NCBI GenBank assembly: GCA_947626745.1
Contig: CANQTF010000001.1
Coordinates: forward strand, 1 to 64,000
Reading direction: 5' to 3'
Length of the DNA stretch: 64,000 bases
From: an uncultured Lachnospiraceae bacterium
GTDB taxonomy: Bacteria > Bacillota > Clostridia > Lachnospirales > Lachnospiraceae
Position numbers and translations under genes: made by a program. Within the stretch, counting starts at the first letter, position 1. Every line of letters begins with the position of its first letter. The notes under the pieces were generated by a model. It searched no databases. It was given only the letters and a program-made list of their open reading frames with translations, and was not told the DNA's origin. This document shows, piece by piece, positions 30,505 through 46,436 of the stretch.

Positions 30505-31803
30505 ATGGAAGGACAGTTGAAAAACGGTACGACGCTCACTTCCGAGGGCGGGAGCAGGTACAAGGTCAAAGCGCTTTTGGGCTCCGGCGGTCAGGGCGAA
30601 GTGTACGAGGTGGAATCGCGCGGCAGGATCTATGCGATGAAGTGGTACTATAAGAACAGTGCGACGCAGAACCAGAAAGAGATCTTGGATAATCTGCTCC
30701 AAAAGGGGCAGCCGGACGTGTCGTTTTTGTGGCCGCAGGACATGATCTTTCGCGCCTATGGGGAGCCGTTCGGCTATGTCATGCCGCTCAGGCCGAAAAA
30801 CTACAAGAGTATCGTGGACATGATGAAAAGAAGGGCCGAGCCTTCTTTTTACTGCCTGTGCCGGGCGGCTTACAACCTGACGAAGGGATATAACGCGCTG
30901 CACGCAAAGGGATACAGCTATCGCGACATCTCCTTCGGCAACGTGTTCTTTGACCCGGATACCGGAGACGTCCTGATCTGTGACAACGATAACGTATCGT
31001 ACAACGATGCGAAGAGCGGCGTCTACGGAACGCCCCGGTTTATGGCGCCGGAGATCGTCCTCGGCAAGGCAAGGCCGTCGCGCAACACGGACCTGTTTTC
31101 CCTGGCGGTGCTGCTGTTCTATATGTTTATGCTGAATCACCCGTTAGAGGGGAAAAGAGAGGCAAAGATCAAATGTATGGATATCCATGCCATGAATCAG
31201 TTATACGGCACGGATCCGCTGTTTATCTTTGACCCGGACAATAAGGACAACCGGCCGCTCGTCGGCTATCAGGACAATGCGCTCGTGTTCTGGGATCTGT
31301 ATCCCGGACAGCTCAGGGAGCTTTTTACCGCATCGTTCACGGTGGGGCTGAGAGAGCCGAACCGCAGGGTGACCGAGACGAAATGGCTGGAGACCTTCGC
31401 AAATATGATGTCGGGCATCATCACCTGTCCGCACTGCGGGGCGGAGGTGTTCTACGACAGCAAAAAAGAGGCGGACGGCGTGGCGCATACGTGCTGGAGC
31501 TGCCAGAAGCCGGTGGCTGTCCCCGTGAAGCTCGTTATCGGCAGGAGCACCGTGCTGCTTGCCGCGGGTACGAAGCTCTATAAGCACCATACGGACGGCG
31601 GTCATGACATGGAGACCGTGGTCGGCGAGGTGGTGCAGAATCCCAAGGCTCCCGACGTTTGGGGCATCAGGAATCTCTCGAAGGAAAATTGGACCTATAT
31701 TAAGGCGGACGGTACGCAGATCCCGATCGAGGAAGGCCGCTCCGCGACGATCGCAAGGAATGTAAAGATCGATTTCGGGCAGCTCAAAGGGGAATTTTGT
31801 TAA
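30505..31803 (+). CDS. Degenerate Ser/Thr protein kinase with zinc ribbon (TerY-P type)
   Basis: 432 residues. Kinase domain about 15-290: glycine loop GSGGQGEVYEV, lysine in YAMKWYYK, catalytic loop YRDISFGNVFF (HRD changed to YRD), metal motif ICDNDNV in place of DFG, and GTPRFMAPEI. A zinc ribbon CPHCG...CWSCQ lies at about 308-332, and the C-terminal ~90 residues (GIRNLSKENWTYI) look like a divergent FHA fold. Kinases with this DND motif occur with a VWA and a PP2C protein in the TerY-P triads described for stress systems, which is exactly the neighbourhood here. Substrate unknown; catalysis likely but not certain. Confidence 0.82.
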   Translation: MEGQLKNGTTLTSEGGSRYKVKALLGSGGQGEVYEVESRGRIYAMKWYYKNSATQNQKEILDNLLQKGQPDVSFLWPQDMIFRAYGEPFGYVMPLRPKNYKSIVDMMKRRAEPSFYCLCRAAYNLTKGYNALHAKGYSYRDISFGNVFFDPDTGDVLICDNDNVSYNDAKSGVYGTPRFMAPEIVLGKARPSRNTDLFSLAVLLFYMFMLNHPLEGKREAKIKCMDIHAMNQLYGTDPLFIFDPDNKDNRPLVGYQDNALVFWDLYPGQLRELFTASFTVGLREPNRRVTETKWLETFANMMSGIITCPHCGAEVFYDSKKEADGVAHTCWSCQKPVAVPVKLVIGRSTVLLAAGTKLYKHHTDGGHDMETVVGEVVQNPKAPDVWGIRNLSKENWTYIKADGTQIPIEEGRSATIARNVKIDFGQLKGEFC

Positions 31804-31813
31804 GGAGGCTTCG

Positions 31814-32971
31814 ATGGAAGACCACAGGATCTTGGCAAGGATCATAAAAGATTATCCGGACGTCCTCTCGGACCGAAGGAAACTGCAGGCGCTCCTCTCG
31901 GATTTTTTTCCGGAGAACAGGCTGAAGCGCAATATCCTGCTGATGGTCTATGACGACGGCATCGTCGGGCAGCTGTCGGAGCTGACGCGGCTTGACAGCC
32001 TCACGCTGCAGCGGTTCGTCAGATCCGTCGGACAGGGCTACGGCATACAGGCGCAGAACGCCGAGACGGCGATCCTCGCCTGGGCGGGCGCATTGGGAGT
32101 CGCGGCGGACACGGAGCAGGGCGTCCGGGAAACGGCCGCTTCCTGTGAGGAGGAGAGCGGCTGCGCCGCGAACGAGAACGCATACGAGTATGAGGATACG
32201 CCGAGGGGGATCAAGCTCCTGCGCTATATTGATTTCGACGATATGACCGTGAAGCTGCCGGACCGGATCGGCGGCAGGAAAGTGACGGAGGTCGGCAATC
32301 ATGCGTTCAAGGGCTGTGTCGGCATCGAGAAGATCATCGTGCCGGAAGGGATAGAGGTGCTTGGAAACGGCGTGTTCCTCAACTGCAAGGAACTGCGGGA
32401 AGTCGTTTTGCCGGGCACGTTGAAGCGCATCGGCACGGCGGACACGGACGGCTGCCCGAAGATACTGGGGACCATGACGAAGCTGGAGGGGGCCTTTGAA
32501 AATACGGCGCTGGAGAGCGTGACCGTGCCGGACAGCGTGAAGTATATCGGCGAGTATACCTTTTCCGGCTGCTTGCGGCTTCGCAGTGTCACACTGCCGG
32601 CCGGATTGCGGGAGATCAGGGACTACACCTTCTGCTGGTGCAGGAGTCTGCAGGAGATAACGTTCCCCGCGGAACTGGAAGCAATAGGCACGGAGGCGTT
32701 CGAGGGCTGCGAGTCGCTGGAGACGGTGATCCTGCCGGAAGGCGTCAGCAGTATCGCGCAGGGGGCCTTTGCAGGGTGTAAGGCTCTGCGGCGCATTTAT
32801 CTGCCGGATTCCGTCAGCGAGATCGGCGGCGGACGGGGCAGCGGCTTTATACAGACATTCGGACAGCCGGAGGACAGGCATCAGGACTTTACGATACTGT
32901 GCAACGCGGGCTCCTATGCGATGGGCTACGCGAGAAAACAACAGATCAGATGTGCCAGAGCACAATTATAA
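31814..32971 (+). CDS. BspA-type leucine-rich repeat protein
   Basis: 385 residues. An N-terminal helical region of about 95 residues (SDFFPENRLKRNILLMVYDDGI, then ETAILAWAGALG) resembles a domain seen in clostridial signalling proteins next to kinases, followed by an acidic linker and about six LRR_5 repeats (KVTEVGNHAFKGCVGIEKI, KYIGEYTFSGCLRLRSV, EAIGTEAFEGCESLETV). No signal peptide or anchor, so it acts in the cytoplasm, unlike surface BspA proteins. It lies between the kinase and the VWA gene with 10-11 base gaps, so it is part of the same operon, possibly as a substrate or scaffold. Confidence 0.82.
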   Translation: MEDHRILARIIKDYPDVLSDRRKLQALLSDFFPENRLKRNILLMVYDDGIVGQLSELTRLDSLTLQRFVRSVGQGYGIQAQNAETAILAWAGALGVAADTEQGVRETAASCEEESGCAANENAYEYEDTPRGIKLLRYIDFDDMTVKLPDRIGGRKVTEVGNHAFKGCVGIEKIIVPEGIEVLGNGVFLNCKELREVVLPGTLKRIGTADTDGCPKILGTMTKLEGAFENTALESVTVPDSVKYIGEYTFSGCLRLRSVTLPAGLREIRDYTFCWCRSLQEITFPAELEAIGTEAFEGCESLETVILPEGVSSIAQGAFAGCKALRRIYLPDSVSEIGGGRGSGFIQTFGQPEDRHQDFTILCNAGSYAMGYARKQQIRCARAQL

Positions 32972-32982
32972 GGAGGGATACT

Positions 32983-33693
32983 ATGGCAACAATGAAGAGA
33001 CCGGGAGGAGAACTGGCGAGCAGACCGCTGCATTTCTTTTGGATCGTGGATTGCTCCGGTTCCATGCGCGGAGAAAAGATCGGCACGGTAAACCATGCGA
33101 TCCAGTCCACGATACCCGAGATGGTCGCGGCGGCCGAGAACAATCCCAATGCGCAGCTCATGATCCGGACACTGAAATTTTCCACAGGGGCTTCATGGGT
33201 CACGAGCAGCCCGGTGAATGTGGAGGACTTTGCGTGGGACGATCTGGAGGCGGACGGCGTGACGGATCTTGGCAAGGCGTTTGAGCTTCTGGCGGCGCAG
33301 CTCACGATACCGCCCATGTCGGACAGGGCCCTGCCTCCGGTGCTGGTGCTGCTCTCGGACGGACAGCCCACGGACGATTACAAGAAAGCCCTGGCGGAGC
33401 TTAAGAAGCTGCCGTGGGGTAAGAAAGCCGTCAAGATCGCCATTTCCATAGGACAGGATGCGGACGATGCGGTCTTGGAGGAGTTCACGGGCAACAAGGA
33501 GCTGGTGCTGCAGGCGAACAATGCCGCCGCGCTCACTAAGATGATCAAGTGGGCGTCTACCGCCGCATCGCTGGTATCCGCACCGGCAAGCGTCGCGGCG
33601 GATACGCAGGACGGCGCCGGCAGTCCGGTTATCGTCGAGATGGGAGGCAGACTTCCCGATCTGGACGATATTCAGGATGGCGACGTCTGGTAA
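32983..33693 (+). CDS. VWA domain protein (TerY-like)
   Basis: 236 residues from ATG 32983; the track start at 32899 lies inside the LRR gene and lacks the AAGGAGGG found before 32983. The von Willebrand A domain has the metal site FWIVDCSGSMRGEK (DxSxS), a downstream Thr in GVTDLGKAF, and PVLVLLSDGQPTDDYK, as in TerY/YegL proteins that act as metal-dependent scaffolds. The C-terminal tail is low-complexity. With the adjacent kinase and PP2C it makes a TerY-P-like triad. Confidence 0.88.
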   Translation: MATMKRPGGELASRPLHFFWIVDCSGSMRGEKIGTVNHAIQSTIPEMVAAAENNPNAQLMIRTLKFSTGASWVTSSPVNVEDFAWDDLEADGVTDLGKAFELLAAQLTIPPMSDRALPPVLVLLSDGQPTDDYKKALAELKKLPWGKKAVKIAISIGQDADDAVLEEFTGNKELVLQANNAAALTKMIKWASTAASLVSAPASVAADTQDGAGSPVIVEMGGRLPDLDDIQDGDVW

Positions 33694-33707
33694 AAGGAGT
33701 GTTGCAT

Positions 33708-34526
33708 ATGACGCGAAGCGTATTCGGCGAGTCTGTGCAGGGAGCGGCCCATATCAGGAGCGGCAAGGAGTGTCAGGACAGCCTGAAAAAGGTCGAGCGG
33801 GGCGAAGATGCGCTCATTTTGGCGGTCGCCGACGGACACGGGAGCGACGCCTGTCCGTACAGCAGGACCGGAGCGGACACGGCCGTGAACGTGTTCTGCA
33901 GGATCATGGAGGACTATCTGGATACCTATGCCGCATATCCGGAGACGCTTCTGACCTTTTTGAAGCGCGAGGGCGACACCAAGGTGGCACAGGCGATAGA
34001 AGCGGAGTGGAAGCGGCGGATACTGCGGACCCATGCCGTCAAGAAGCGCGGCTGGGCGCTTGACGCGGACGGCAATAAGGACAAGGACGCCGTGTACAGG
34101 CTGTACGGGAGTACGCTGGTCGGGCTGGTGATGACGAAGGAGTTCCTCTTTGCCTTCCAGCTTGGCGACGGCGACATCATGGAGGTGTCCAAAAAAGGGG
34201 TGCAGAGCGTGATCGAGGCGGATAAGATCCTCGGAACGGAGACACATTCGCTCAGCAGACCGGAGGCATGGCGCAAGGCGATCACATACACCGCGAAGCG
34301 GGCTGCGGATCAAAAACTGCCTGTGCTGTATATGCTCTCCACCGACGGCATGGCGAACAGCTATAAGAATGAGGCGGAGTTTCAAAAGACCTGCGCCGAT
34401 TATTACGCGCTGCTGCAGAAGCACGGCGTGAAAGCGGTGGCGGACAGTCTCCGGGGCTGGCTTGCCGAGACGAGCGAGCTCGGCTGCGGTGACGACATCA
34501 CGGCGCTCTTTGCCTATTACGCCTGA
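33708..34526 (+). CDS. PP2C-type protein phosphatase (TerY-P triad)
   Basis: 272 residues from ATG 33708 (AAAGGAG upstream; the track ORF at 33549 runs through the VWA gene in another frame). Metal-binding motifs of PPM phosphatases: AVADGHGSD, LGDGDIMEV, LSTDGMANS and CGDDITALF. It probably reverses phosphorylation by the kinase at 30505. Cytoplasmic; no anchor. The operon appears to end here, since a 111-base gap precedes yitT. Confidence 0.88.
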   Translation: MTRSVFGESVQGAAHIRSGKECQDSLKKVERGEDALILAVADGHGSDACPYSRTGADTAVNVFCRIMEDYLDTYAAYPETLLTFLKREGDTKVAQAIEAEWKRRILRTHAVKKRGWALDADGNKDKDAVYRLYGSTLVGLVMTKEFLFAFQLGDGDIMEVSKKGVQSVIEADKILGTETHSLSRPEAWRKAITYTAKRAADQKLPVLYMLSTDGMANSYKNEAEFQKTCADYYALLQKHGVKAVADSLRGWLAETSELGCGDDITALFAYYA

Positions 34527-37684: not shown

Positions 37685-38356
37685 ATGAAATACGAATTTG
37701 AGGGTACGGTGGAATTCAGGGAGAATGAGAACACGATCGCCGTGCCGTTCAATGTCTGGGAAGTATGCGAGAAGGTCGGGGACGCACCGGTCAGGGTATG
37801 TTTTGACGATGTCTGTTTTATCTGCGATCTGGTGCCGAAGGGACAGGGATATTATGATATCCCGATCAGTCAGGAGACGTTATCCAAGGTGGAGCTGGGG
37901 AAGAAATATACGATCTCCATTGAGATCGTCGGTAATGTGACGGCGCTGAGCGGGAACAGCCCATACAGCACACAGAACCCTATCCGCAGGATCGACGGCA
38001 TCGATCTTGTCACACAGCCCTGGGACGGCCTGTGCGGACAGTCCTGTATCGCGATGATCGCGGGCACTACGTTGGATGAAGCCTGTGACATCATGAAGTG
38101 CCGCGAGTGGCAGGCGAACATGAGCAAGATGATCGCCACGTTAGAGTATCTTGGGATCCGTCATGCGGACAAGATCGTGTACACATTGGGCAAGACCGTG
38201 GAGCTGCCGAAGTGCTGTATCATCATGGAGAAGATGGGAAGGTACAGCCACTATCTCGTGGGATACGAGGGGCAGTACTATGACCCGAATCTGGGCGTGC
38301 TCAAGGAGTTCGACCATGAGAAGATGGTCGGTTATCTGGAGGTCGTGACAGAGTAA
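37685..38356 (+). CDS. DUF1905 domain fused to a C39-like papain-fold domain
   Basis: 223 residues. Residues 1-85 (KYEFEGTVEF...GKKYTISIEI) match the DUF1905 beta-barrel. Residues 110-220 look like a papain-fold peptidase of the C39-like group: WDGLCGQSCIAMIAG with a Cys at the helix start, RYSHYLVGYEG with a His, and YYDPNLGV with an Asp/Asn. No secretion signal. This fusion is unusual; peptidase activity, or a role as a peptide-processing or inert binding protein, cannot be decided. Monocistronic between its own weak promoter and a bidirectional terminator. Confidence 0.75.
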   Translation: MKYEFEGTVEFRENENTIAVPFNVWEVCEKVGDAPVRVCFDDVCFICDLVPKGQGYYDIPISQETLSKVELGKKYTISIEIVGNVTALSGNSPYSTQNPIRRIDGIDLVTQPWDGLCGQSCIAMIAGTTLDEACDIMKCREWQANMSKMIATLEYLGIRHADKIVYTLGKTVELPKCCIIMEKMGRYSHYLVGYEGQYYDPNLGVLKEFDHEKMVGYLEVVTE

Positions 38357-38763: not shown

Positions 38764-38803
38764 AGAAATCGTTAGTGCAGAAAAAAGACGATGCGATACG
38801 AAC

Positions 38804-39782
38804 ATCGGAAGCTGCCTTATGGCGGAAAGGAACACGGAAGACAATGGATGAAAAATTTCCTCTGGCGCTGCCCGAAGGGACCATACTGGCGGGCCAGTAT
38901 ATGATTGAGAAGGTGCTGGGACAGGGCGGCTTCGGCATCACCTACAGAGCGATCGATCATAAGACAGACCAGAAAGTTGCGGTCAAGGAGTTCTTCCCGG
39001 ACGCGATGGCATACAGGGAAGCGACGACCGTCATCTCATATCCGGGCGAGCGCACCGAGAACTATGAGTACGGCAAGGAAAGCTTCCTGCAGGAAGCGCA
39101 GACTCTCGCGGAGTTTATCGGGAACGAGAACATCGTGCGCATCCACAGCTACTTTGAGGAGAACGGAACGGCGTATTTTGTCATGGACTACATCGAGGGC
39201 ACGAGCTTCGATGCGTATCTGAAAGAAAAGGGCGGAAGGATCGGCATGGAGGAGGCCGAGCGCATACTGATCCCCGTCATGGACGCGCTGAATGTGGTAC
39301 ACAGCAAGGGCATCGTCCACCGTGACGTGACGCCGGACAACATATATCTCACCAATGACGGCAAGGTCAAGCTGTTAGACTTCGGCGCGGCGAGATACAG
39401 CCTCGGCGACAAGAGCCGCAGTCTGGACGTCATCTTAAAGCATGGGTTTGCGCCGAAGGAGCAGTACACAAGACGGGGCAAACAGGGGCCTTTTACCGAT
39501 GTCTACAGTCTGGGCGCCACCTTCTATTTTGCGCTGACGGGGAAGCGGCCGCCGGATTCCGTGGAGCGGCTTGACGAGGATGACCTGATCCCGCCGAGCA
39601 ATCTGGGCGTGGAGATCACGGAGTATCAGGAGCGGGCGATCCTTCAGGCGCTGAGCGTCCAGCCCGCCGAGCGTTTCCAGTCTATGGCGGATTTTAAGCA
39701 GGTGCTGCTGCAGGAGAATACCGCCACGAACCAGATCTTTTTTACCGCGCCTCCGGCTGCAACGCCGGCCATGCAGCAGACA
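38804..39782 (+). repeat. Direct repeat, copy A (kinase-domain duplication)
   Basis: About 979 bases that recur at 40576-41554, offset 1772. Apart from a few changes at the two ends, the copies look identical base for base, including third codon positions; even the shadow ORFs of 105, 94 and 97 codons are the same in both. Confidence 0.92.
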
Positions 39783-40520
39783 CCTGCGGGCATGCCGTAT
39801 CAGACGGCGCCGGCCATGCAGCAGACAGCTGCGGGTGTGCCGTATCAGACGACACAGCAGGGATATCCGGCGGTCGTGCAGACGGCACAGGCCGGGCCTT
39901 CGACGAAGGAGCAGATGACGCAGCTTCTGGAGAAAGGGAAGCAGCTTCTGGAGAAAGGGAAACCGCTTCTGGAAAAAGGGAGACCGCTTCTGGAAAAATT
40001 CAGGCAGACGAGATACAAGAAGCTGATCGTGGCAGTGGTCGTGCTGGCGTGCATATTGCTCTCCGGAACGGGTTCGCTGATAAGAGGGCACGGAAGGGGA
40101 CTGCGCTCTCCGGAAGCGGCTTTTGAGGCATTTTTTAACGGACAGGCGGAGCAGGATTTTGACAAGCAGTTGAACGCGTATCCTGATTTCAGGATAGAGG
40201 CCAGAGGCGGTGAGGACAGTCTTAAGGAAGAGATGCAGTCCAGTTATGATGCAACGTTCAAACAGTATGCGGAAGAGGGATACAGCCTTCGCTATGAAGC
40301 CGTCGGGTATACCAAGTTAAGCCAGGAGGAGACGGAGCAGCTCGCGAAGAGTCTCAGCGAAACGTATCAGGCGGATGTCAAATTATCCGACGCGGCTACC
40401 GTTGATTATGTGATCCATATGAAGAATGACAGTAATGGTGTGGATAGCACCTCGGACATGCTTAACGGCGGATACAGTGTTAAGTATAAAGGAAAATGGT
40501 ACTATTTTAATGCTTTTTAA
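38844..40520 (+). CDS. Membrane Ser/Thr protein kinase, copy A
   Basis: 558 residues from ATG 38844 (GGAAG just upstream; the track GTG at 38775 is less likely). Hanks-type kinase domain about 14-290 with GQGGFGITY, VKEFF lysine, HRDVTPDNIYL and LLDFGAAR, all catalytic residues intact, then SLGATFYFALTG. A Gln/Pro-rich linker and four LLEKG(K/R) repeats (about 353-388) precede one transmembrane helix (about 392-412). The outer ~140 residues contain an AFEAFFNGQAEQDF start resembling NTF2-like stress sensors and end in KWYYFNAF. First gene of the XRE-controlled operon; a sensor kinase of the PknB style without PASTA repeats. Confidence 0.9.
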   Translation: MDEKFPLALPEGTILAGQYMIEKVLGQGGFGITYRAIDHKTDQKVAVKEFFPDAMAYREATTVISYPGERTENYEYGKESFLQEAQTLAEFIGNENIVRIHSYFEENGTAYFVMDYIEGTSFDAYLKEKGGRIGMEEAERILIPVMDALNVVHSKGIVHRDVTPDNIYLTNDGKVKLLDFGAARYSLGDKSRSLDVILKHGFAPKEQYTRRGKQGPFTDVYSLGATFYFALTGKRPPDSVERLDEDDLIPPSNLGVEITEYQERAILQALSVQPAERFQSMADFKQVLLQENTATNQIFFTAPPAATPAMQQTPAGMPYQTAPAMQQTAAGVPYQTTQQGYPAVVQTAQAGPSTKEQMTQLLEKGKQLLEKGKPLLEKGRPLLEKFRQTRYKKLIVAVVVLACILLSGTGSLIRGHGRGLRSPEAAFEAFFNGQAEQDFDKQLNAYPDFRIEARGGEDSLKEEMQSSYDATFKQYAEEGYSLRYEAVGYTKLSQEETEQLAKSLSETYQADVKLSDAATVDYVIHMKNDSNGVDSTSDMLNGGYSVKYKGKWYYFNAF

Positions 40521-40575
40521 GAGTGTGGGGAAGGACGCTTGTGCCTCTGTCTGCAAAGCAGCCCATAATTACGGT

Positions 40576-41554
40576 ATCGGAAACTGCCTTACGGCGGAAA
40601 GGAACACGGAAGACAATGGATGAAAAATTTCCTCTGGCGCTGCCCGAAGGGACCATACTGGCGGGCCAGTATATGATTGAGAAGGTGCTGGGACAGGGCG
40701 GCTTCGGCATCACCTACAGAGCGATCGATCATAAGACAGACCAGAAAGTTGCGGTCAAGGAGTTCTTCCCGGACGCGATGGCATACAGGGAAGCGACGAC
40801 CGTCATCTCATATCCGGGCGAGCGCACCGAGAACTATGAGTACGGCAAGGAAAGCTTCCTGCAGGAAGCGCAGACTCTCGCGGAGTTTATCGGGAACGAG
40901 AACATCGTGCGCATCCACAGCTACTTTGAGGAGAACGGAACGGCGTATTTTGTCATGGACTACATCGAGGGCACGAGCTTCGATGCGTATCTGAAAGAAA
41001 AGGGCGGAAGGATCGGCATGGAGGAGGCCGAGCGCATACTGATCCCCGTCATGGACGCGCTGAATGTGGTACACAGCAAGGGCATCGTCCACCGTGACGT
41101 GACGCCGGACAACATATATCTCACCAATGACGGCAAGGTCAAGCTGTTAGACTTCGGCGCGGCGAGATACAGCCTCGGCGACAAGAGCCGCAGTCTGGAC
41201 GTCATCTTAAAGCATGGGTTTGCGCCGAAGGAGCAGTACACAAGACGGGGCAAACAGGGGCCTTTTACCGATGTCTACAGTCTGGGCGCCACCTTCTATT
41301 TTGCGCTGACGGGGAAGCGGCCGCCGGATTCCGTGGAGCGGCTTGACGAGGATGACCTGATCCCGCCGAGCAATCTGGGCGTGGAGATCACGGAGTATCA
41401 GGAGCGGGCGATCCTTCAGGCGCTGAGCGTCCAGCCCGCCGAGCGTTTCCAGTCTATGGCGGATTTTAAGCAGGTGCTGCTGCAGGAGAATACCGCCGCG
41501 AACCAGATCTTTTTTACCGCGCCTCCGGCTGCGGCGCCGGCCATGCAGCAGACA
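40576..41554 (+). repeat. Direct repeat, copy B (kinase-domain duplication)
   Basis: Second copy of the repeat at 38804-39782. The copy starts 40 bases before the ATG and so includes the ribosome binding region but not the promoter or operator. Confidence 0.92.
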
Positions 41555-42862
41555 GCTGCGACCATGCCGTATCAGACGACACAGCAGGGATATCCGACGG
41601 TCGTGCAGACGGCACAGGCCGGGCCTTCGGCAAAGGAGAAGGTGGCGCCGCTTCTGGAGAAGATCAGGCAGATGAAGCACAAGAAGCTGATCGCGGGAGT
41701 CGCGGGCGGGCTGCTTCTGGCGGTCATAGCTGTACGGATCCTGTCCGGCATCGGGGCGGGCGGTGAGACCGAGCGGGCGAGCGGCAAGTCGGCCCACGGA
41801 GAAGACAGCTATGCGGAAGCCGACTATCACGGCACGGAGGAACCGGACTACGGCACGGAAGAACCGGTCTACGGTACGGAAGAGCCGGACTACGGCACAG
41901 AGGAGTCGCAGGGGCAGTCGGATTTTGATGCGAGCGGACTGCAGATCGTGGGGACCACGGCGGGCAACATTAAGAATTTTGGAACGTATACCGCCAATGA
42001 CGGCAGTGAATTCTGGCTTGACGACGGCCAGCACTCCCTAGTGTGGAACGAGGGATATATCTACCGGAATCAGACGGGAACATTCAATAGTTTGGCCTAT
42101 GACCGCGGCATTCTGTATTTTGGGTATGACGGGAAGGCATATATGCGGGATCTGATGCAAGGCACAGCGGAGTCGCTCATAGCGGAATTGTCCGGACACA
42201 ACAATATAACCAGGCTGTTTGTGACGGATAAGTACTATTTTATCTATGACAGTGATTACATTCTGACCCGCGTGTCCAGACAGACCGGACAAGAGGAAGA
42301 AAGCAGCGGGATAGACAGTGGGTATTTTACATTCGACAACGACGGTCATCTCTATACGGTCGGCGTAAATGAGGACGGTCATTCGACGATCTATCAATAC
42401 AGGGCGGATGATTTTAGCGCACCGGTTGATTATATCTGGTACAAAGACGGCACCCGCAGATTTGAAGATATAGTGGTTGACGGCGATTGGCTGTATGTAT
42501 TCATGACAGACGGCACGTCCACCTATCTGCAGCGGCTCAGCACCGATTTCTCGGATGAGAGCTACGCTAGGGTATGGGATATCACCGCATATGTCACGGA
42601 GAACGGGACGGATGGAGATAATGAGGCAATCTGTCTCAATGTCAAAGACGGTTTCGTCGCTTTCAACGTCTATGATTCGGACAGCGACGATTTTATGGTC
42701 CTGTATATAACGGAGGATCCGGATCAGGGCTTTCAGCAGCATCAGAGCGATCCCGACTATGGGAACTGCTTGGGATATGTATGCTTCCCGTGCAGTGGCA
42801 AAGCATCGGAAAATTATTGCTGGTTCCGATACAATCCAGATACCGATCTGTGGATGTGGTAA
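40616..42862 (+). CDS. Membrane Ser/Thr protein kinase, copy B
   Basis: 748 residues from ATG 40616. The first ~300 residues are practically identical to copy A, with the same intact catalytic motifs. After the linker and one transmembrane helix (about 356-376), the external part is different: a stretch with repeated YGTEEPDYGTEEP units (about 400-440), then about 290 residues rich in Tyr, Asp and beta-strand pattern (YFTFDNDGHLYTV, DWLYVFMTDGTSTYL) like DUF5050-type propeller domains. Same intracellular kinase, different outside sensor. No promoter of its own is visible, so it depends on the upstream one. Confidence 0.9.
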   Translation: MDEKFPLALPEGTILAGQYMIEKVLGQGGFGITYRAIDHKTDQKVAVKEFFPDAMAYREATTVISYPGERTENYEYGKESFLQEAQTLAEFIGNENIVRIHSYFEENGTAYFVMDYIEGTSFDAYLKEKGGRIGMEEAERILIPVMDALNVVHSKGIVHRDVTPDNIYLTNDGKVKLLDFGAARYSLGDKSRSLDVILKHGFAPKEQYTRRGKQGPFTDVYSLGATFYFALTGKRPPDSVERLDEDDLIPPSNLGVEITEYQERAILQALSVQPAERFQSMADFKQVLLQENTAANQIFFTAPPAAAPAMQQTAATMPYQTTQQGYPTVVQTAQAGPSAKEKVAPLLEKIRQMKHKKLIAGVAGGLLLAVIAVRILSGIGAGGETERASGKSAHGEDSYAEADYHGTEEPDYGTEEPVYGTEEPDYGTEESQGQSDFDASGLQIVGTTAGNIKNFGTYTANDGSEFWLDDGQHSLVWNEGYIYRNQTGTFNSLAYDRGILYFGYDGKAYMRDLMQGTAESLIAELSGHNNITRLFVTDKYYFIYDSDYILTRVSRQTGQEEESSGIDSGYFTFDNDGHLYTVGVNEDGHSTIYQYRADDFSAPVDYIWYKDGTRRFEDIVVDGDWLYVFMTDGTSTYLQRLSTDFSDESYARVWDITAYVTENGTDGDNEAICLNVKDGFVAFNVYDSDSDDFMVLYITEDPDQGFQQHQSDPDYGNCLGYVCFPCSGKASENYCWFRYNPDTDLWMW

Positions 42863-42896
42863 GCATAAAAGGAGCAACACAAAGGAGGAGATCAAT

Positions 42897-43493
42897 ATGG
42901 CAATACAGGAATGTGCAAACGGACATCTCTATGACACGGATCAGCATGCGAGCTGTCCGTACTGTCAGGGGAACGCTACCAGGATCAATTTTGAAGGTTC
43001 TTCGGTGGGCAGAACGGTAGGGATCGCGCCCGAAGCGGAGGTTGGCGCGACGATGGCGCCTGTGGGCTACACGAGACAGCAGGACAGGAGCGATACGGGC
43101 AAGACGGTCGGCGCCTTTCAGAAGAAGCTGAGCTTCGAGCCGGTCGTAGGCTGGCTGGTGTGCTTCGACGGCCCGGAGAAAGGCAAGGATTACAGGATCT
43201 ACGGGAGAAACAACACCGTCGGCAGAAGCGAGAAGATGGATATCTGTATCAAGGGCGATCCCACCATATCCAGAGAGAATCATGCGCGGCTTGCTTATGA
43301 CGAGAAGCACAACGCTTTTCACCTGATCCCCGCGGAGAGCACCAATACGATCTATCTGAATGAGGAGCCGGTCTATGTGCCCACCAAACTAAACGAATAT
43401 GATGTGATCGAGTTCGGCGACTGCAAACTGGTCTTCGTTCCTTTCTGCAACGAACGGTTCACATGGCAGACAGGCTTTAAGCAGGAACAATGA
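42897..43493 (+). CDS. FHA domain protein with N-terminal zinc knuckle
   Basis: 198 residues from ATG 42897 after AAAGGAGGAG; the track ORF extends upstream into the kinase gene. Residues 4-25 carry C-x3-H and CPYC, a small zinc ribbon. After a Thr-rich linker (possible phosphorylation sites near GATMAP and SDTGKTVGA), the FHA domain at about 95-185 shows YGRNNTVGRSEKMDI, TISRENHARL and NTIYLN, which reads phosphothreonine. It is an obvious adaptor for the two kinases upstream, comparable to GarA-type proteins by logic only. Confidence 0.88.
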   Translation: MAIQECANGHLYDTDQHASCPYCQGNATRINFEGSSVGRTVGIAPEAEVGATMAPVGYTRQQDRSDTGKTVGAFQKKLSFEPVVGWLVCFDGPEKGKDYRIYGRNNTVGRSEKMDICIKGDPTISRENHARLAYDEKHNAFHLIPAESTNTIYLNEEPVYVPTKLNEYDVIEFGDCKLVFVPFCNERFTWQTGFKQEQ

Positions 43494-43494
43494 T

Positions 43495-44319
43495 ATGGCA
43501 TGGTTTAAGAGAAAAGCAAAACGGAATGAGGAAGTGATCCCGGAAGCGTCCGCAAACGCGGAGCAGCCGGGCAGACCGGCTTACCGGCTCGAAAACATAC
43601 AGGGAGTGGGAGCGCGGGCAAGGCAGGAAGATTCCTTCACCTTTATGAATGCGCTTGACGAACAGCTTTACCGCGATCACGGAATGATGTTTGCGGTCTG
43701 CGACGGCATGGGCGGGATGAAGGACGGAAAGGTGGCCAGTGAGACGGCGATCAACAGCTTCCGGCGGTCCTTTGAAGCGCTGGACACAGATGCGGACATT
43801 GCGGGACAGCTGCGGGACAGCGTTTTTGCCGCTTCGGCGGAGATAGAGGATATCTTGGAAGGCGACGGCGGAAGCACGGTCGTGATCGGTGTGGTCTTTC
43901 GGGAACAGCTCTACTATGCCAGCGTGGGCGACAGCTATTTCTATCTCAAGAGAGGCGGCGGACTGTACCGCCTGAACGCGGAGCACAATGTCTGTCATCT
44001 CAGATATCTGGAAAACATACGGGACGGCGGTTTTGACATACAGGAGTGCCGGAACGATCCGGAGGCTGCGGCGCTGACGCAGTTTCTCGGCATGACCGGA
44101 CTTTCGCAGGTCGATCGTTCCGTGCGGCCTCTGCGTCTGCAGCCCGGAGATCTGCTGCTTGCGTGTTCCGACGGCGTGGGCGGGGTAGTGGACGAGCGGG
44201 AGCTTCTGGAGATCCTCGACGGTTCGGAAGGAATGTGCCGGCGGATCGAACAGCGCATCGCAGAGCATGCGAGGCCGAATCAGGATAACTATACGGCGTT
44301 GATCATACAATGTCTGTAA
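43495..44319 (+). CDS. PP2C-type phosphatase 1 of the kinase operon
   Basis: 274 residues. PPM motifs: RQEDSFTFM, VCDGMGGMKDG, VGDSYFYLK, CSDGVGGV and NQDNYTAL, all acidic metal ligands present. ATG is one base after the FHA gene stop. Cytoplasmic; likely dephosphorylates the kinases or the FHA proteins. Confidence 0.9.
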   Translation: MAWFKRKAKRNEEVIPEASANAEQPGRPAYRLENIQGVGARARQEDSFTFMNALDEQLYRDHGMMFAVCDGMGGMKDGKVASETAINSFRRSFEALDTDADIAGQLRDSVFAASAEIEDILEGDGGSTVVIGVVFREQLYYASVGDSYFYLKRGGGLYRLNAEHNVCHLRYLENIRDGGFDIQECRNDPEAAALTQFLGMTGLSQVDRSVRPLRLQPGDLLLACSDGVGGVVDERELLEILDGSEGMCRRIEQRIAEHARPNQDNYTALIIQCL

Positions 44320-44345
44320 AAAAACAAAAGAGAGGGGACAAGAAC

Positions 44346-45704
44346 ATGAGAACAAGATTACTACAGCGCATGCGCATAGCCATTCTGTTGGTCTGCGCGG
44401 TACTGACAACGATCTGCATGGGCAGCAGGTCCTATGCGTTTGAGGGCAGCGCCCAAGACGGAACGGTGGCCATAGTATTCTACCTGAAAGGGGCTTTTGC
44501 CTTTATCACGGACGGGGAGCATACACAAACGCTGGAACAATATGGAGATACGCAATACAGCAGCGGTTCGGGTTTCTTTATCGGAGCTTCCGGAGAGGAT
44601 CCGCAGTATATCGTTACCAACTGTCATGTGATCCAGAGTTATCTTAAGGCGGACGAGGGCGGTGCCTTTGCGGTCTATACAGGACAGGAGTATCAGGGCT
44701 ATCCCGTTTGTATCGGAGCGCAGAGCTGTGAGCTGCGGGTCTACTATGACGATGAGGATTATGATATCGCCTATGTGGAAGCCTACGGCGATGTGGACAA
44801 GGTCGATTTGGCGGTGCTCAGGATCAGAGAGGCGACCGACAAGCGCTGTGCCCTTCAGTTTCAGATTCCTACGGAGGACATGAAGGGTGATACGGTCTAC
44901 ACGATCGGCTATCCCGGAAATGCCGATAATGATTTTTCGGGTGCAAGTCATTACGGTATCGAGGATTCCACCATGCATCGGGGCGTTATCAACCGCTTTG
45001 TCGTAAATGAGGGAAAGGGCGTGGAGAGGATCGCGATCGACGCGACGCTCCAGCACGGCAATTCCGGCGGACCGCTGGTCACGGAGGAAGGTTATGTGAT
45101 CGGCGTCAATACCAATGTATACTCCAGCAGTCCTTATGAGGATCAGATCGAGGAGGATTATTATGCGATCAACGCTTCTGAGGTGACGCATTTTCTGGAT
45201 CAAAACAACATCGATTATGAAATGGCGGGCAAAGGCGGCGCCGGTCTCGGCATCGTGCTGATCATCATCGGCATTGTGGCTGCTGTGGCCGTTGTGGCGG
45301 TGATCGTCGTTCTGGTCCTGAAGAAGAGTAAGAAGGGAGCAGGGACGAAGGGGCCGAAGCCTGTCCGGACAGGCGGCACGAAGGCGGTCGTCAGATCTAT
45401 GGCTTCGCAGCATGGCGGCAGGGAGTTCCCCGTCGGCAGCTCTCCCATTATCATCGGGCGGAATCCGGCGGAGTGTACGATCGTGTTCCAGGAGGGGACA
45501 AGAGGTGTCAGCGGCAGACATTGTTCGGTATACTATAATGCCGGCGCCAATGTCTTTACCCTGACGGATCTGGGCTCTACCTACGGGACATTTTTGGGCA
45601 ACGGCATGCGGCTGACGGCCAATTCGCCGATCAACTTAAAGCCGGGCGACATCTTCTATATCGGTGAGAAGACCAATGTACTGAAAGTCGAAGCGGGGCA
45701 GTAG
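44346..45704 (+). CDS. Membrane trypsin-like serine protease with cytoplasmic FHA domain
   Basis: 452 residues from ATG 44346 (GAGAGGGG upstream; the track start at 44310 lies in the PP2C gene). A signal peptide ends near SYA (about residue 33). The external protease domain has a trypsin triad in order: TNCHVIQS, KVDLAVLRI and LQHGNSGGPLV. One transmembrane helix GIVLIIIGIVAAVAVVAVIV (about 300-325) leads to a basic linker and a C-terminal FHA domain with IIIGRNPAECTI, GVSGRHCSV and DLGSTYGTFLGNG. Topology thus joins an outside protease to an inside phosphopeptide reader, under the same operon as the kinases. DegP-like quality control is possible, but the PDZ domain is missing. Confidence 0.9.
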   Translation: MRTRLLQRMRIAILLVCAVLTTICMGSRSYAFEGSAQDGTVAIVFYLKGAFAFITDGEHTQTLEQYGDTQYSSGSGFFIGASGEDPQYIVTNCHVIQSYLKADEGGAFAVYTGQEYQGYPVCIGAQSCELRVYYDDEDYDIAYVEAYGDVDKVDLAVLRIREATDKRCALQFQIPTEDMKGDTVYTIGYPGNADNDFSGASHYGIEDSTMHRGVINRFVVNEGKGVERIAIDATLQHGNSGGPLVTEEGYVIGVNTNVYSSSPYEDQIEEDYYAINASEVTHFLDQNNIDYEMAGKGGAGLGIVLIIIGIVAAVAVVAVIVVLVLKKSKKGAGTKGPKPVRTGGTKAVVRSMASQHGGREFPVGSSPIIIGRNPAECTIVFQEGTRGVSGRHCSVYYNAGANVFTLTDLGSTYGTFLGNGMRLTANSPINLKPGDIFYIGEKTNVLKVEAGQ

Positions 45705-45707
45705 ATC

Positions 45708-46436
45708 ATGTTTGACGTTTATACATATACCGGCCGGGGAGGCCGCAGTTATAATGAGGACTCGGTCGGCAGCAGCTATGACAATGACGGCGGCAGCGGG
45801 ATCTTTGTCGTGGCGGACGGCCTCGGCGGGCATGCGCTCGGCGAGGAGGCTTCCGCTGCGGCTGTGGCGGCTGTCGTTTCCGGCTGGGGAGATTTCGAGG
45901 AGGATATCGCATCGCAGCTTCGGGAGAAGATAGCACAGGCCAACCGGGATATCCTGCAGCTCCAGCAGGAAAAGAATGCCGTTATCAAGACGACGGTCGC
46001 GGCGCTTGCCGTAAACGGCGGTCAGGCGGCGTGGGCCAATGTGGGGGATTCCAGAGTGTATTTTATCCACGACGACAGGCTGCACGCCTACACGAACGAT
46101 CACTCCGTAGCCTATATGAAATACAGGGCGGGCGAGATCACCAGAGAGCAGCTCGCAACGGACGAGGACCAGTCGAGACTGCTGCGCAGCCTTGGAAGCG
46201 AGGAGCGGAATGAACCGGACGTGTATGCGGCGGATGTGGCGCTTGCGCCGGGCGATGCCTTTTTCCTCTGCTCGGACGGCGCCTGGGAATATCTGCAGGA
46301 CGAGGAGATCCTGATCGATTACCTGAAAGCCGAGACGGCCGCAGATTGGGCGGAGCTGATGCTGCTTCGGATCATGGAGCGGGTCGACGGCGAAAACGAT
46401 AATCTGTCGTTAGTGACCGTGATACTGACTGATTGA
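45708..46436 (+). CDS. PP2C-type phosphatase 2 of the kinase operon
   Basis: 242 residues. PPM motifs: YNEDSVGSS, VVADGLGGHALGEE, VGDSRVYFI, LCSDGAWEYL and NDNLSLVTV. It follows the protease gene by three bases. Last gene of the operon; the closely spaced set ends here with a new promoter 42 bases further on. Confidence 0.9.
   Translation: MFDVYTYTGRGGRSYNEDSVGSSYDNDGGSGIFVVADGLGGHALGEEASAAAVAAVVSGWGDFEEDIASQLREKIAQANRDILQLQQEKNAVIKTTVAALAVNGGQAAWANVGDSRVYFIHDDRLHAYTNDHSVAYMKYRAGEITREQLATDEDQSRLLRSLGSEERNEPDVYAADVALAPGDAFFLCSDGAWEYLQDEEILIDYLKAETAADWAELMLLRIMERVDGENDNLSLVTVILTD

Follow-up and report, generated by a model that had tools for sequence, protein, structure and literature searches.

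Within the window, by which we mean the whole stretch of 64,000 nucleotides that was analysed, positions 30505–34526 carry four co-directional open reading frames in the order kinase, LRR protein, VWA protein and PP2C phosphatase, with intergenic gaps of 10–14 bp and good ribosome-binding sites for all four. The genes, and the relevant parts of their products, are as follows:

30505–31803, + strand: kinase gene (PF00069, E 5e-20)
30505–31392, + strand: kinase catalytic domain, residues 1–296 (PF00069, E 5e-20)
31393–31530, + strand: kinase zinc ribbon, C308/C311/C330/C333 (Cys columns invariant in a 45-sequence alignment)
31531–31803, + strand: kinase C-terminal FHA-fold domain, residues 343–432 (AlphaFold2, pLDDT 91.6; Foldseek)
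31814–32971, + strand: LRR protein gene (LRR_5, PF13306, E 1.8e-44)
31814–32113, + strand: helical, TerY-P-associated, adaptor-like N-domain, residues 1–100 of the LRR protein (HMM, AlphaFold2)
32114–32218, + strand: fast-evolving linker of the LRR protein (median 42% identity, 26 genus homologues)
32219–32971, + strand: cytoplasmic BspA-type repeats (LRR_5, PF13306, E 1.8e-44)
32983–33693, + strand: VWA gene (PF00092, E 8.5e-9; TerY-like, MIDAS intact)
33652–33690, + strand: VWA C-terminal tail motif (I/L)PxxDDIxxxDVW-COOH (from homologue C-termini)
33708–34526, + strand: PP2C phosphatase gene (PF13672, PP2C_2, E 4e-34)

A TerY-P triad consists of a TerY-like VWA protein, a PP2C phosphatase and a kinase with a C-terminal zinc ribbon (Anantharaman et al. 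2012, as summarized in PMC11090510), and the cassette is such a triad with one extra gene, that of the LRR protein. A sequence-only reading of the locus had already recognized the three core members, and all of them are confirmed by Pfam and by conserved motifs: the MIDAS residues of the VWA protein (D23/S25/S27, T94 and D126) are conserved and its DCSGS..T..D motif is intact, as are the metal-ligand motifs ADGHG, GDG, DG and GDD of the phosphatase. The absence of ter genes, which had also been claimed, holds to the extent that TerD was not found in the source genome, a Lachnospiraceae assembly as judged by its relatives (83.5% complete). Additionally, no TerY_C metal-binding domain adjoins the triad in the window, the four-gene cassette encodes no nuclease or other toxic enzyme, and its VWA and PP2C proteins are unrecognized by the PADLOC models. 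The neighbours of the cassette in the window are SMC, FtsY, IlvA, YitT, GH25 and a second kinase cluster. At 38775–42862, a tandem pair of Ser/Thr kinase genes shares 1003 bp at 99.2% identity across the kinase region and differs in the C-terminal parts, which we ascribe to recent duplication or gene conversion. Downstream, and outside the TerY-P cassette, is a second phosphosignalling cluster (42894–46436) made up of an FHA protein, a PP2C, a trypsin–FHA membrane protein and another PP2C. A protein with an N-terminal DUF1905, encoded at 37685–38356, is 86–89% identical in relatives irrespective of their cassette state.

The kinase had been described as degenerate from its YRD and DND motifs; however, K46, D141 (YRD), N146 and D160 (DND) each reach at least 95% conservation among 77 homologues, so these motifs are a clade signature and not a sign of decay. 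Since nearly all homologues keep these four catalytic residues, the kinase of the cassette is probably active, and its assignment as a pseudokinase was rejected on this family-wide retention. The Pfam zinc-ribbon models hit the kinase only below cut-off, and the ribbon is called from its conserved cysteines: C308, C311, C330 and C333 are at least 95% conserved in the same 77 homologues. The suggestion that the C-terminus is FHA-like is borne out by structure prediction: the top Foldseek matches of this domain in the PDB are almost all FHA (best E 4e-3, probability 1.00), with the canonical SxxH phosphopeptide motif not recognisable by eye in the tail. The VWA protein terminates in Trp in 83 of 85 homologues and in VW in 80 of 85, the sequence ahead of the terminal Trp being variable; DVW also terminates the VWA protein of Methylomonas. 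We regard this C-terminal tail as a candidate docking peptide.

The LRR protein is of the cytoplasmic BspA type, as had been proposed, and has no signal peptide by inspection. Its N-terminal domain, which the sequence-only reading had called signalling-type, does prove to be a helical domain associated with the triad across taxa: the AlphaFold2 model is all-helical, with a core pLDDT of ~95. Neither Pfam, NCBIfam and PDB sequences nor PDB and viral folds gave a match, which rules out a known family or fold in these sequence and fold libraries; moreover, when 44 members of the family were scanned, no named EAD family was among the best 25 of 35 weak families (E ≤ 1). The N-domain is unnamed and looks adaptor-like. 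An HMM from its first ~100 residues found 89 N-domain proteins in 87 neighbourhoods, in none of which did the kinase, VWA or PP2C reading frames examined carry the domain, so homotypic coupling is not indicated. No alignment column of the N-domain exceeds 50% Ser/Thr, which argues against a common phosphosite. A second copy in the source genome was sought and rejected, the sole other match (L007, E 0.07) being due to chance. Phage or plasmid carriage was likewise rejected: there is just one distant viral contig, together with two plasmids and one phage record, which speaks against a phage gene.

The LRR gene is inherited together with the triad as one unit. A VWA search of GTDB genomes gave 38 same-genus loci; the VWA gene occurs in 43 of 77 genus genomes, and the presence of the cassette is patchy. 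An N-domain LRR protein is encoded at 37 of these 38 loci, 35 directly and two more via tblastn, by which genes missed through length-based picking of reading frames were found in L024, L025 and L055. The sole same-genus locus with kinase, VWA and PP2C genes and no LRR gene is L034 (750–3671); L022 is another such triad. Outside the genus, the N-domain–LRR fusion is present in 17 of 44 loci, and N-domain proteins occur at nearly every complete triad locus; the linkage of the LRR gene to the triad, raised from the window sequence, thus recurs elsewhere. Five genus genomes that lack the VWA gene have ilvA and yitT adjacent (an empty site), and between these two genes the window and L143 have exactly the kinase, LRR, VWA and PP2C genes; other genus members have the same gene order at a second site that follows the Rnf operon, where a TerY_C gene often comes after the PP2C gene. 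From the empty-site comparison and the common order at the second site, we conclude that the cassette acts as one accessory unit, the LRR gene included.

Because the neighbourhood loci had been picked by their VWA gene, the link between N-domain and triad was tested independently. Among 299 family genomes, the N-domain is present in 10, the VWA gene in 8 and both in 7; that is, the domain occurs in 7 of 8 triad genomes versus 3 of 291 others (Fisher P = 2e-11). The three domain-only genomes have a short reading frame beside BrxL, a copy at a contig edge and a stop-containing fragment. The short N-domain reading frame next to BrxL, with no triad (L120:8030–10687), is possibly a decayed island. 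When 399 phylum genomes were searched separately, two further ones proved to encode the N-domain, each time beside a triad and in one of them in three copies, and the domain adjoins TerY-P triads in Clostridia, Synergistota, Bacteroidota and Gammaproteobacteria.

The same N-domain is carried by a diverse set of payloads: LRR, Sel1 and ankyrin repeats, DEAD/RecQ, UvrD and SNF2 helicases and DUF4261, and, in other taxa, FGE-sulfatase, Clp_N, ClpX zinc finger, Tim44 and FtsK. Of these, the L108 FGE fusion has HMM support; the Prevotella FGE and FtsK fusions are weaker, being based on the visual similarity of a divergent N-domain copy. A different payload type occupies the slot between the kinase and VWA genes in L070, L074, L075 and L095. 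On a Methylomonas plasmid (L126:11495–16031), five tandem genes behind a TerY-P triad have N-domains that are 91–98% identical, with Sel1, Tim44-like, Clp_N and ClpX zinc finger payloads and one without assignment. Such a pattern would arise if one partner held the N-domain constant while the payloads exchanged; recent duplication and later gain of payloads would also produce it. One N-domain on many payloads suggests a switch whose sensors or effectors can be exchanged. The LRR protein had also been considered as a scaffold, and this comes nearer the mark, although the scaffold-like part is the N-domain, the LRR being one payload among many.

Compared with 26 genus homologues, the cassette has median identities of 96% for the VWA core, 85% for the kinase catalytic domain, 71% for PP2C, 65% for the LRR, 58% for the N-domain and 42% for the linker. 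The LRR thus diverges faster than VWA and kinase, and little faster than PP2C; as synonymous sites are saturated, these rates are relative only and diversifying selection is unsupported. A hypervariable LRR under such selection was rejected on both counts.

TerY-P triads have been reported to be anti-phage (PMC10889362, for a Pseudomonas aeruginosa variant; Gao et al. 2020, as cited in PMC11090510). Outside the genus, BrxL is found at 14 of 44 loci, lying beside the adaptor-LRR gene and triad in L017, L061 and others, and some loci have GajB-like helicase, DUF4011-nuclease, Schlafen or TIR genes nearby. In L108 (6000–9780), a TIR–Sel1 gene is close to a triad with an N-domain–FGE protein. Same-genus cassettes occupy fixed chromosomal sites, free of integrase or defence neighbours. 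TerY_C is a separate gene in 34 related loci, and TerD genes, identified by sequence inspection, adjoin the distant triads L019 and L020. In many relatives (e.g. L017:9717–11086), PP2C is followed by a TerY_C gene and a transglutaminase-like gene; a gene of ~170 aa is commonly upstream of the kinase. Since the window neighbours are housekeeping genes, a defence role is attributed to the cassette by family, and its purpose may, by analogy, be phage defence.

We tentatively favour a reading, held at a little below an even chance, in which the LRR, docked through the adaptor, makes a kinase/phosphatase switch specific. The helical N-domain would attach the payload protein to the phosphorylation core, a role in which it would serve other payloads in relatives. 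The LRR, as a protein- or ligand-binding array, would most simply be the specificity or sensor subunit: on meeting a ligand that is plausibly a product of phage or stress, it would change the state of the core, the kinase would then phosphorylate cell or phage targets, and PP2C would reset the switch. Signalling would then run from payload to core. As the cassette lacks nucleases and other toxic enzymes, its output is likely to be the kinase itself. Counting against the docked LRR are the L034 cassette, which has no LRR gene, the divergence of the LRR at a rate close to that of PP2C, with diversifying selection unsupported, and the fixed sites without defence neighbours; moreover, the helicase, Clp_N and ClpX zinc finger payloads resemble outputs or targeting parts more than sensors.

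These last payloads point to the reverse direction, in which the adaptor-bearing protein is the output or targeting module: once the core was phosphorylated, the N-domain would be released or recruited, and the LRR would carry the system to its cellular or phage target. The RecQ, UvrD and SNF2 helicases, FtsK, Clp_N and the ClpX zinc finger are indeed enzymes or machinery-binding parts. The window payload, however, consists of repeats only, a binding surface without a catalytic domain, and the payloads of FGE, ankyrin and Sel1 type likewise resemble binders; FGE/C-lectin folds have been proposed as antigen sensors in comparable systems (PMC10907252). We consider this reversal unlikely, while according it real weight. 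Somewhat less probable again is that the cassette serves this gut genus as a chromosomal switch for stress or metal response and not as an immune system. The fixed sites, the lack of an effector enzyme and the low relative dN would suit such a switch, as would TerD beside L019 and L020 and TerY_C beside many relatives; but the source genome has yielded no TerD, TerY_C is missing at the window site, the patchy presence in the genus and the defence genes around relatives do not fit, and triads are reported to be anti-phage elsewhere (PMC10889362).

It is improbable that the kinase has the LRR protein as its target, as was suggested earlier. One operon does hold a phosphatase and a kinase with intact catalytic residues, and the predicted FHA-fold tail could read a phosphosite; the lack of conserved Ser/Thr in the N-domain, together with payload swapping, nevertheless disfavours it; the linker is only 42% identical, L034 has no such gene, and a phosphosite shared among freely differing payloads would need to lie in a non-conserved part. 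That the LRR gene is a passenger beside a self-sufficient triad, as the triads of L034 and L022 might suggest, is very improbable in view of its retention at all but one of the genus loci and of N-domain proteins at nearly all complete triad loci.

If the docked-LRR reading is taken further, the N-domain might be a universal docking module for interchangeable sensors and effectors, and the cassette a split LRR-receptor-plus-kinase immune switch in this genus, a design counterpart of eukaryotic LRR-kinase immune receptors; we put this forward as a speculative extension, itself on the unlikely side. TerY-P triads raise the question of how they sense and what they target, and swappable payloads on a common plug offer a testable answer, approachable by identifying the binding partner of each payload and of the plug. 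With the N-domain one can also search for payload proteins that are still uncharacterised, and the window cassette is a naturally minimal four-gene version suited to biochemistry.

Among known systems, the TerY-P triad is the closest in parts: the window has all three core proteins, contiguous, with active-site motifs intact and a zinc ribbon on the kinase, and its relatives have a TerY_C metal-binding gene alongside. It differs in the FHA-fold domain added after the ribbon, in the constant helical adaptor with an LRR partner gene, and in having no ter genes. The TerY-P anti-phage system is likewise a stand-alone module of kinase, VWA and phosphatase, but the Gao-type kinase has, in the description given in PMC11090510, an OB-fold in place of the zinc ribbon, and an adaptor-LRR gene is not among the parts reported there. 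Unlike the Ter stress system, the cassette has neither linked TerD-family genes nor TerY_C. Type II/III-A CoCoNuT systems include TerY-P triads, with LRR components in some extended operons (PMC11090510), whereas no McrB/McrC-type genes with coiled coils are among the cassette neighbours in the window. BrxL-containing islands are similar in that relatives pair BrxL with the adaptor-LRR gene and triad; the window cassette itself has no BrxL or other restriction gene. The EADs and GAAD adaptors of NTP-dependent conflict systems (PMC7159879) also combine a small helical domain, varied sensors or effectors and a constant core; that core is, however, vWA-MoxR, STAND or GTPase rather than a phosphorylation triad, no EAD family was matched among the best 25 of 35 weak families, and the N-domain was not found on core proteins. 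Overall, the cassette resembles in its design the EAD/GAAD adaptors, among which neither its family matches nor the distribution of its N-domain place it, and by family it is a TerY-P triad.
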